Positions 60,743-63,458 of a stretch of 64,000 nucleotides of DNA are shown one piece after another. A program made the translations under genes and the position numbers. The DNA is from Blattabacterium cuenoti (GTDB lineage: Bacteria > Bacteroidota > Bacteroidia > Flavobacteriales > Blattabacteriaceae): NCBI RefSeq assembly GCF_014252075.1, contig NZ_CP059209.1, positions 1-64,000 on the forward strand, written 5' to 3'. Each line of letters starts with the position of its first letter. Positions within the stretch are counted from its first letter, which is position 1. The notes under the pieces are model-generated. The model was not told where the DNA came from. It ran no database searches and worked only from the letters and a program-made list of their open reading frames with translations.

Positions 60743-61951
60743 ATGAATTTACATGAATACCAAGGTAGAGAAATATTGAATTCTTTTTCAATTCAGGTTC
60801 CATATGGAATACTCGCTTCTTCTCCAGAAAAAGCTGTGGAAGCAGCAAAAATTATTTTTAAAAGAACTGAAAAAAAATCTTTGGTGATTAAAGCCCAAAT
60901 ACATGCGGGGGGACGTGGAAAAGCTGGTGGTATTCAAATAGCGAAAACTCTAGATGAAGTTTATGAAAAATCGAAAAATCTCTTAGGAAAATTCTTAGTC
61001 ACGCCACAAACTTCTAAAAAAGGAAAATTAGTTAGAAAAATTTTGTTATCTGAAGATATCTATTCTTACGAGTTAAAACCTCCTAGAGAATATTATCTGT
61101 CTATATTACTTAATCGTGACATAGAAAAAAATATGATAATCTATTCCAAAGAAGGAGGTGTCGATATAGAGGATCTTTCAAAAAAAAAACCAGATAAAAT
61201 CTATAAAGAAAAAATAGATCCAATATTGGGATTGCAATTATTTCAAACTAGAAAAATTGCTTTTAATCTGGGAATGAATAACGATTCATTAAAAAATTTT
61301 AGTTTTTTTTTAATTTCTCTTTATAAAGTTTATAAAAATTGCGATGCATTACTTTTAGAAATTAATCCTTTAATAAAAACATTTAATAAAAAAATTATTC
61401 CTGTAGATATAAAAATTGTATTAGATGATAACGCTTTGTTTCGTCATAAAAAATATGCCATGATGAATGATCAAGAAAATATTGATATACTTGAAAAAGA
61501 GGCAACTAAATCTAAGTTAAATTTTTTGAAATTGGAAGGAAATGTAGGATGTATGGTTAATGGAGCGGGGTTAGCTATGGCAACTATGGATATGATTAAA
61601 TTTTGTGGTGGAGAACCAGCTAACTTTTTAGATATAGGAGGATCTGCAGATAAAGAACGTGTAGAAAAAGCTTTTCATCTTATATTAAAGGACAAATCTG
61701 TTAAAACAATATTGATCAATATATTTGGTGGGATAGTCCGTTGTGATACAGTAGCGAAAGGAATAATTAGTTCATATTCTAAAATTGATCATGATATTAA
61801 AATTCCGGTGGTTGTTCGTTTACAAGGAACAAATGAGAAAATAGCAAAAAAAATGCTTAAAAATAGTTTATTGCCTATTTATTCGACAGATACATTGAAA
61901 GATGCTGCTGATAAAATTCAGGAAATTTTGCAGAGAGATGCTTATGAATAA
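60743..61951 (+). CDS. sucC: Succinyl-CoA synthetase beta subunit
   Basis: SucC with SucD interconverts succinyl-CoA and succinate in the TCA cycle with nucleotide phosphorylation. The 402 residues show the ATP-grasp domain (HAGGRGKAGGIQIAK), LLLEINPL, and the C-terminal GCMVNGAGLAMATMD and INIFGGIVRCD. Length is close to the usual 390-400. No sucD is adjacent. The C-terminus overlaps the dnaX start by eight bases. Confidence 0.96.
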   Translation: MNLHEYQGREILNSFSIQVPYGILASSPEKAVEAAKIIFKRTEKKSLVIKAQIHAGGRGKAGGIQIAKTLDEVYEKSKNLLGKFLVTPQTSKKGKLVRKILLSEDIYSYELKPPREYYLSILLNRDIEKNMIIYSKEGGVDIEDLSKKKPDKIYKEKIDPILGLQLFQTRKIAFNLGMNNDSLKNFSFFLISLYKVYKNCDALLLEINPLIKTFNKKIIPVDIKIVLDDNALFRHKKYAMMNDQENIDILEKEATKSKLNFLKLEGNVGCMVNGAGLAMATMDMIKFCGGEPANFLDIGGSADKERVEKAFHLILKDKSVKTILINIFGGIVRCDTVAKGIISSYSKIDHDIKIPVVVRLQGTNEKIAKKMLKNSLLPIYSTDTLKDAADKIQEILQRDAYE

Positions 61952-63458
61952 AGTTTTTTATGATAAAATTGTATTAGCTGATAAATACAAACCATTAAGA
62001 TGGAATGATTTGGTAGGACAAGAGAAGATTTCTTTTAGTTTAAAAAAAGCAATGCAAGAAAAACGTTTATCTAAAATTTTATTTTTTTTTGGACCAAAAG
62101 GAGTAGGAAAAAATACATGTGCACATATTTTAGCTAATGAATTGAATTCTTTTTCCTCATTAGAAGAGATTTCTTTAAATAGGTTTGAGATTAATGGTTT
62201 TTTTCATTCCTCCTTAGAAGATATTTATAAAATTATTCATAAATCTCGCTCTTTCCCTAAAAAGGGAAATTACAACATATTTATTATAAATGATATAGAT
62301 AGATTTTCTAGAGATTTTTTTGATTTTTTTTTGAGATTTATAGAAGAAAAAAATCCGCATATATTATTTATTTTTTGCGGAACAAAAGAAAAAATAGTTC
62401 CAGAATTTATTCTATCACGTTGTCAAATTTTTGAATTTGAAATAATTTCTGTAAAAGACATTTTTTTTCATTTAAAAATGATAGCTGAAAAAGAAAACAT
62501 AGAAATAGAAAATGAATCTTTATTGATTATTTCTAAGCATGTAAAAGGATCTCTTAGCAAAGCTATTCATTTATTTGATAGATTCATATCATATAATGGA
62601 AAAAAAATACAAAAATGTTTTATCATGAATAAATTGGGAATAATTGATATCAAGTACTATTTTAAAATAGTAGATAATCTTTTGGATAAAAATGTTTATA
62701 AAACATTGAAACTGTTCAATAAAATTTTTCAAAAAAAAATTGAATCTTATAATCTGGTAGTAGGTTTAACTAAACATTTCAGAAATTTACTTTTTTCTAA
62801 AAATTATGAAACAATTTCTATTTTAAAATTTAAAAAGGAAATTATACAATCTTATATTGAACAATCAGAAAAAATATCTTTCTTTTTTTTAATTCATGCT
62901 TTGAGTGTTTTCCATCGTTTGGAAAAAGAATACAAATTAAACAATCAAAATTTCAGATTGACAGTAGAAATACAATTAATTCAATTGGCACATTTCTTTT
63001 CTATTCACAAAAAAAAACATGAAAATTCTCTAATAGAAAAAGAGAATAAAGAATTTTTCTCTTATAAAGAGAATGAAAAAATTCATTTTTTACAAAAAAA
63101 TTGGATTGAATTTGTACAAAAATTTTCAGAAAAGATAGATCCTATTTATTTGGATTTTTTGAAAGATGAAACACAATTTCAAGTCATAAAAAATAAAATA
63201 TTTTTTATAATTCCTTGTAAACTGGAAAATAGAGATTTTTTATTAATTCAAACCAATTTTGAAAAATTTTTCAAAAGAAAGTTAAATAATCCACATTTGG
63301 AATTTAAAATCATAAAAAAAGATTCAAAAGAATATCCAATTCCAATAGAACAGTACAATTTTTTATCTCAAAAAAATAAATTGGTAGAAACATTAATAAA
63401 ACGATTGAATTTAAAAATATCTTCTTCAACAATACAAGAAGAAAAAAAACTTTTATAA
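61944..63458 (+). CDS. dnaX: DNA polymerase III gamma/tau subunit, ATPase site degenerate
   Basis: DnaX is the ATP-binding motor of the clamp loader. The 504-residue protein aligns with Bacteroidota DnaX along its length, from LADKYKPLRWNDLVGQ to the C-terminal YPIPIEQYNFLSQKN. Several ATPase features are lost: Walker A is GPKGVGKN (Asn 57 in place of Thr/Ser), the four zinc-ligand cysteines are absent, Walker B IIDEVH reads IINDID, and the sensor-2 Arg is Ser (GSLSKA). The arginine finger LSRCQ remains. ATG at 61944 chosen by alignment; it overlaps sucC by eight bases. Confidence 0.88.
   Translation: MNKVFYDKIVLADKYKPLRWNDLVGQEKISFSLKKAMQEKRLSKILFFFGPKGVGKNTCAHILANELNSFSSLEEISLNRFEINGFFHSSLEDIYKIIHKSRSFPKKGNYNIFIINDIDRFSRDFFDFFLRFIEEKNPHILFIFCGTKEKIVPEFILSRCQIFEFEIISVKDIFFHLKMIAEKENIEIENESLLIISKHVKGSLSKAIHLFDRFISYNGKKIQKCFIMNKLGIIDIKYYFKIVDNLLDKNVYKTLKLFNKIFQKKIESYNLVVGLTKHFRNLLFSKNYETISILKFKKEIIQSYIEQSEKISFFFLIHALSVFHRLEKEYKLNNQNFRLTVEIQLIQLAHFFSIHKKKHENSLIEKENKEFFSYKENEKIHFLQKNWIEFVQKFSEKIDPIYLDFLKDETQFQVIKNKIFFIIPCKLENRDFLLIQTNFEKFFKRKLNNPHLEFKIIKKDSKEYPIPIEQYNFLSQKNKLVETLIKRLNLKISSSTIQEEKKLL

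Follow-up and report, generated by a model that had tools for sequence, protein, structure and literature searches.

Loss of catalytic residues from a retained DnaX clamp-loader ATPase in Blattabacterium

Introduction

A loaded sliding clamp is taken as what makes chromosome replication possible. The available text of PMC3331839 puts processivity at about 10 bp without a sliding clamp and about 80 kb with one. The window analysed here, i.e., bases 1–64000 (64,000 nucleotides) of a single-contig Blattabacterium genome of 636,273 bases (G000), carries a dnaX gene with an apparently dead ATPase site, and raises the question of how Blattabacterium, which lives within the cells of cockroaches, copies its chromosome with a DnaX that is disarmed yet mostly intact. 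The reading preferred here, which we place slightly on the probable side of even, is that the ancestor of the genus gave up ATP-driven clamp loading and retained DnaX as a scaffold that does not hydrolyse nucleotide but probably binds it. That the clamp-loading system was shut down is well supported by the sequence comparisons, and the scaffold role is what we infer for the protein that is left. No report of a genus-wide loss of the DnaX ATPase was found in those portions of the Blattabacterium literature that were available. A genus-wide gene-loss study from 2021 reportedly may cover the loss of dnaX or dnaN.

The dnaX gene of the window

By homology and domain order, the gene product is the clamp-loader ATPase DnaX (gamma/tau) (Table 1). 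It is above the cut-off of PF13177 and under the curated cut-offs of both NF011531 and TIGR02397 (219.8 bits for the latter, against a cut-off of 250). Its best sequence relatives in the PDB are tau/gamma entries (E 1.3e-26), presumably of E. coli judging from the entry codes. The order of domains and the tau C-terminal domain are those of canonical DnaX, as in the related genome G053 and E. coli tau, and a sucC-like frame lies upstream in G053 too. In the window, sucC precedes dnaX and a ClpB/ClpA-type gene follows it. AlphaFold, run on the single DnaX sequence, returned a pLDDT of 37.6, and a scan of genome contigs gave one distant locus (L005), covering residues 16–70.

The difference from canonical DnaX lies in the catalytic residues. 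Walker A reads GPKGVGKNTCA, with Asn at residue 57 where the pattern GxxGxGK[T/S] has Thr or Ser; the Walker B acids Asp and Glu are replaced by N116 and D117; and the sensor-2 Arg is S205. The SRC motif of the arginine finger is present. These substitutions, and the single open frame, are as the preliminary description of the locus had given them. That description also listed the zinc cysteines as absent, and residues 61–96 indeed contain no Cys; the absence is not specific to this lineage, however, since the same cysteines are missing from all five family relatives and from 6 of 29 order outgroups, whose ATPase motifs are canonical. Loss of the zinc module was accordingly rejected as part of the story.

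Table 1. Features of the dnaX region, in window coordinates.
Feature	Position	Strand	Remarks
sucC	60743–61951		NF001913; last 8 bases overlapped by the dnaX start
dnaX	61944–63458	+	504 aa, one open frame; NF011531 E 4e-86, TIGR02397 E 5.9e-65
P-loop GPKGVGKNT	62091–62117	+	G/G/K retained; Thr to Asn57, codon AAT at 62112–62114
Degenerate Walker B IINDID	62283–62300	+	Residues 114–119; canonical IIDEVH
SRC arginine-finger motif	62415–62423	+	Residues 158–160, in the window species
Sensor-2 position	62556–62558	+	Arg to Ser205
Collar domain (domain III)	62619–63008 (approximate limits)	+	PF21694 and PF12169, weak matches under cut-off
A9 tract, gamma/tau junction	63009–63017	+	
Tau C-terminal (polymerase-binding type) domain	63099–63419 (approximate limits)	+	Alignment with G053 and order outgroups

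Catalytic residues in Blattabacterium and its relatives

The genus sample comprised 49 genomes, in 46 of which DnaX could be aligned through the ATPase domain; G038, where the N-terminal half of DnaX is missing, was excluded from the motif counts. The 34 relatives used for comparison were five members of the same family and 29 of the same order. The latter are 29 of the 30 best-scoring loci (L198 gave no ORF that passed the filter) among 110 matching genomes of 119, and as best matches to a DnaX model they lean towards canonical sequences.

Residue 57 is Asn in 41 of the 46 genus sequences, Ser in four and His in one; it is never Thr, the residue found in 34/34 relatives. Asp116 of Walker B is kept in 1/46, Glu117 in 7/46, the sensor-2 Arg in none and the arginine-finger Arg in 27/46 (lost in 19), all four being present in every one of the 34 relatives. 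No genus DnaX has Asp116 and Glu117 together, and none combines Ser or Thr at position 57 with both Walker B acids. With these counts the earlier diagnosis of a dead ATPase site stands, and no sister strain with a canonical Walker A and B was found among the 46. The arginine finger, which had been called intact, is so in the window species and varies across the genus. Sequencing error or a strain-specific change was rejected and deserves almost no credence: no support for it was found, and 46 aligned species-level sequences from 49 genomes share the losses, which argues against chance or error.

On a tree of DnaE (made by a quick method, with SH-aLRT support only and a long-branch warning, and read by eye), the losses of Thr57, Asp116 and Arg205 are found on both sides of the deepest fork in the genus, so they are most simply ancestral. 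The loss of Glu117 is not simply ancestral, since this residue is kept in the nearest relatives of the window species (G028, G030, G042 and G036), as well as in the nearby G027 and in G023 and G025. Whether the losses are shared across the genus, a check proposed beforehand, can thus be answered affirmatively for Thr57 and the sensor-2 Arg (46/46) and for Asp116 (45/46), but not for Glu117.

Conservation of the P-loop

Residues F48, G50, G53, G55, K56, C59 and A60 are identical in all 46 sequences. Seven of the 23 fully invariant columns of DnaX therefore fall within residues 48–60, the richest stretch of 13 residues (p = 2e-7 for the stretch), and residues 46–62 form the most conserved segment of the protein (0.866, against 0.58–0.70 elsewhere). 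Such strict retention despite the loss of catalytic residues suggests that nucleotide binding by DnaX may still be important in the genus, and it is unlike the outcome of random decay.

By analogy, the nearest working model for the Blattabacterium protein is subunit E of RFC, which we take to be Rfc5, a loader-type AAA+ protein in yeast with bound nucleotide and no catalysis; the likeness is in manner of working only. The accessible parts of three papers report a natural Walker B change, D141N, in Rfc5 (PMC3740443), ADP held in the E subunit (PMC8893722) and an E site that binds nucleotide without catalysis (PMC3331839). A retained P-loop combined with an Asp to Asn change in Walker B is also what is seen in Blattabacterium, where K56 is accompanied by Asn at position 116 in 34/46 sequences. 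The two differ in that Rfc5 belongs to a pentamer alongside four subunits that are active ATPases, whereas no active partner for DnaX was found in Blattabacterium by the searches that follow.

Search for partner subunits and a substitute motor

The preliminary description had proposed that DnaX has become delta-prime-like, or that the motor is encoded elsewhere in the genome. Searches with PF13177, TIGR00678 and TIGR01128 revealed no separate loader subunit, and none of the 49 genomes had a separate holB or holA match (a strongly diverged holA could escape), so neither proposal is supported, and the delta and delta-prime subunits with which canonical DnaX works had no separate match either. 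Within the genus, PF13177 exceeded its cut-off for DnaX only, in 39/49 genomes; the remaining ten have no dnaX (G024, G029), a truncated one (G038) or one that has diverged strongly. Five family relatives, including four AT-rich genomes near 0.3 Mb, gave both dnaX and holB with the same model and so provide a good positive control. The delta-prime model TIGR00678 gave 42.5 bits on the better piece of the window DnaX, against a cut-off of 180.6. Matches to TIGR01128 (holA) occurred in 42/49 genomes, in all 42 with one match inside dnaX itself, and these are read as cross-matches between related loader subunits; 14 genomes had an additional weak, partial match in a 909–931-aa frame of another gene. 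In 3/49 genomes (G017, G020 and G045; L042–L044) the match in DnaX scores above the curated cut-off for holA (delta).

The AAA+ proteins over cut-off in the window genome were, by profile, FtsH, Lon, RuvB, ClpX, ClpB and a ClpB/ClpA-type protein, with weak AAA+ signals from adenylate kinase and Era. No other loader ATPase was found among these matches or in the PF13177 search of the genus, and both a substitute AAA+ motor and a second dnaX, holB or holA were rejected as candidates.

Delta-prime (HolB) is, like the Blattabacterium DnaX, a loader-type AAA+ protein lacking ATPase activity, and the SRC motif kept in the window species would suit such a role. A delta-prime-like protein would, however, be expected to lose its P-loop and keep the finger, and the pattern of loss here is the opposite. 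Six of the seven holB-type proteins of family relatives have a P-loop-like stretch minus the Lys (e.g., GPSGYGGLP and GPEGCGTLP), and that of G065 has none by the pattern used, whereas Blattabacterium DnaX keeps G53, G55 and K56 throughout and the finger Arg is not conserved. We therefore regard a delta-prime-like DnaX, or a motor encoded by another gene, as very improbable.

Two kinds of reduced loader were noticed among the family relatives. G054 and G055 (L080, L081) keep a holB-type protein and dnaN with no second PF13177 match, a loader remnant in which the PF13177 search detected no ATPase subunit. G049, G050 and G065 (L074, L072 and L078; small genomes) show the reverse of the Blattabacterium pattern: the catalytic motifs of DnaX are intact and the tau tail is absent (341–347 aa), and the DnaE frame stops just past the clamp motif.

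The clamp and the polymerase

DnaE is over cut-off in 49/49 genomes, with frames of 1405–1456 aa in 48 and 1238 aa in G009. Its clamp-binding motif (QVSLFG-like; searched with the pattern Q..[LIM]F or ..[SD][LM]F, devised for the present analysis) is found in none of the 49, as against 13/13 order outgroups. Within the family, it is present in the five relatives with dnaX and holB and in G055, and is absent by pattern from 6 of 12 genomes, namely G054, which has dnaN, and G051, G052, G056, G060 and G066, which have no dnaN match. Loss of this motif is probably partly known already, because PMC3919608, in the text available, reports five Bacteroidetes DnaE1 proteins without a recognizable clamp motif and asks how processivity is reached. 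In G009 (L127), which has no detectable dnaN, the N-terminal exonuclease domain of DnaE is frameshifted, residues 1–123 matching in another frame, and proofreading may be affected.

The clamp gene dnaN was matched in 41/49 genomes, with 16 of the matches exceeding the curated cut-off. It occupies a single frame in 38 and is divided between frames in G015, G030 and G032. The Pro of the C-terminal Met-Pro of DnaN presumably sits in the peptide pocket (P363 of E. coli beta). In the alignment of 38 Blattabacterium sequences, from which the three split genes were left out, Met-Pro has become Met-Ser in 36 and the other two have shifted tails. Met-Pro is found in 7/9 relatives, the other two being unreadable by script; DnaN of G049 and G050 was misread by the script and excluded from the counts.

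A profile search gave no dnaN match in G008, G009, G010, G014, G022, G029, G038 and G039. In seven of these, the region upstream of pheT contains no dnaN frame, and tblastn returns nothing there below E 0.16; for G009, the absence rests on genome searches. The left neighbour of the dnaN site (pdxH by profile in G000) is present in six of the seven, and is also missing in G014. On the DnaE tree, these eight genomes group in a single clade, consistent with one loss. In G042 (L144), dnaN is matched above its cut-off, at 150.9 bits, upstream of pheT. The consulted portions of earlier papers record that dnaN was not found in Blattabacterium strain Bge (the 2009 genome paper, PMC2768785) and that it is a pseudogene in a P. 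japonica Blattabacterium strain (PMC6039017).

These results bear on the idea of a reduced but working loader, in which a DnaX homo-oligomer binds ATP through its P-loop, opens the clamp upon that binding (perhaps acting as a wrench, in the manner of delta) and then lets it go, hydrolysis being inefficient. The invariant P-loop Lys, the uninterrupted dnaN of most genomes and the three DnaX sequences over the holA cut-off would all fit. The losses in Walker A, Walker B, sensor 2 and, in part, the finger fit poorly, as do the missing DnaE motif and the altered clamp tail. Nor do the two genes always go together: dnaX is open in five genomes without detectable dnaN, and dnaN is open in G024, which has no dnaX. 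We hold such a loader to be decidedly unlikely.

Maintenance of dnaX

A protein search found dnaX in 47/49 genomes, only a ruvB-like match being left in G024 and G029. The frame is at least 459 aa long in 42/49, and in the remaining seven the gene is broken or gone (absent from those two, lacking its N-terminal half in G038, and with a broken frame in G008, G004, G021 and G048), so some lineages can do without it. In G024 (L067), about 200 bases separate the sucC and Clp-type frames. In five of the eight dnaN-less genomes, dnaX is open and keeps GxGK..CA.

Rates were compared by the NG86 method, which is crude for AT-rich genes. There were 37 usable dnaX sequences once genes interrupted by a stop within the extended match (G018, G031, G035, G037 and G040), frameshifted genes and G038 had been removed; of 15 species pairs tried, 13 had both dnaX genes, and some pairs share a species. 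The dN/dS of dnaX was 0.20–0.63, mostly 0.2–0.5. The pair G000/G028 gave 0.279 and G009/G039, in which no dnaN is detectable, gave 0.493, with open dnaX frames in both pairs; the maximum of 0.63 belongs to G005/G013. For dnaE, the same pairs gave 0.12–0.33, so that dnaX is higher in 12/13 pairs, mostly about twofold, and equal in one. For dnaN, ten of the 11 pairs fell within 0.19–0.42 and the remaining one, G005/G013, reached 0.87; together with the single frame in 38/49 genomes, this indicates that the clamp, too, is under selection in most species. Neutral simulation (up to 120 copies each, with an assumed transition bias of 3, aimed at dS 0.21 and 0.375 and arriving at 0.26 and 0.34) gave median dN/dS values of 0.93 and 1.10, with a minimum of 0.65, and a mean of 26 and 31 stops, always at least 14, at about the divergence of sister species.

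The check for constraint that had been proposed for this gene therefore came out positive. Open frames and dN/dS below neutral indicate that dnaX is maintained despite its lost catalytic residues, including in five of the eight dnaN-less genomes, and the gene looks to be under continuing purifying selection. No clear regional difference in dN/dS was seen between the ATPase and tau regions. The C-terminal tau region had been described as conserved; it does align with the related DnaX of G053, but the domain shows no greater constraint than other parts of DnaX, and in the five dnaN-less species its identity to the genus consensus is 0.25–0.40.

Slow decay without function, with the clamp system a relic and dnaX merely not yet lost, has to be weighed against this. 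The seven genomes with a lost or damaged dnaX, the elevated dN/dS relative to dnaE, the three split dnaN genes and the genome erosion described for the genus (PMC6128925, in the text available) are all as decay would have them. The 42 long frames are not, given the number of stops expected under neutrality by the time sister species have diverged, and neither is a P-loop that is the best-conserved segment of the protein. Decay without function is an unlikely explanation, although one that carries real weight.

A proposed scaffold in place of a motor

The reading preferred here, a non-motor DnaX scaffold, would run as follows. In the common ancestor of Blattabacterium, DnaX would have lost hydrolysis, delta and delta-prime would have disappeared, DnaE would have lost its clamp-binding motif and the clamp a pocket residue. 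The P-loop and collar of DnaX would hold an oligomer together and the tau domain would tether DnaE, without any loading of clamps. The potential worth of a tau tether is shown by E. coli, in which breaking the contact between tau and the polymerase harms growth and genome integrity, according to the available part of PMC11869525. Read directly from sequence are the residue and motif losses, their spread through the genus, the signs of purifying selection and the persistence of dnaX where dnaN was not detected. A further step, that the 0.5–0.64 Mb chromosome is copied without a loaded clamp and that a nucleotide-locked, non-motor DnaX oligomer holds DnaE at the fork in place of clamp processivity, is rather unlikely in our estimate.

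Several observations count against the scaffold and leave real room for the rival explanations. The C-terminal domain of DnaE is kept in genomes without dnaX (G024, G029), and in G051, G052 and G066, which lack a PF13177 dnaX match, so its distribution does not match that of the tether envisaged here. No special conservation is seen in the tau domain, which is poorly conserved in five dnaN-less species. The gene itself is lost or broken in some genomes, and evolves mostly at about twice the dN/dS of dnaE. Selection on the clamp gene in most species is easier to reconcile with a clamp that works than with a dead one. Four species have Ser57, a permissible Walker A residue, and seven the Walker B Glu, and DnaX passes the holA cut-off in three.

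Loss of clamp-system genes is shared with the flavobacterial symbionts Sulcia and Uzinura; Table 3 of PMC3971599, the part that was available, lists dnaX as absent from both, dnaN as absent from Uzinura, and dnaX as present in Blattabacterium. Those two symbionts are without dnaX, whereas Blattabacterium keeps one that is disarmed and apparently selected. The entry "dnaX present" in a table of symbiont genes need not equal clamp loading. The genus offers a natural series, with a disarmed loader (46/46), a polymerase without its clamp handle (49/49) and a dnaN-undetected clade that often keeps DnaX, and the question of clamp-free processivity posed in the accessible text of PMC3919608 becomes testable with a few purified proteins.

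The poly-A tract at the gamma/tau junction

A long A tract, of A9 or more, occurs at the gamma/tau junction in 19/46 sequences. In G021 (L029), G048 (L034) and G004 (L053) there is an A11 at the same place and the gene is out of frame, so that, barring slippage that restores tau, the product would be of gamma length, about 365 aa. A tracts are equally many in other parts of dnaX, so enrichment at the junction is not demonstrated. A poly-A frameshift is also reported for the dnaX of Blochmannia in the text available from PMC3017870.
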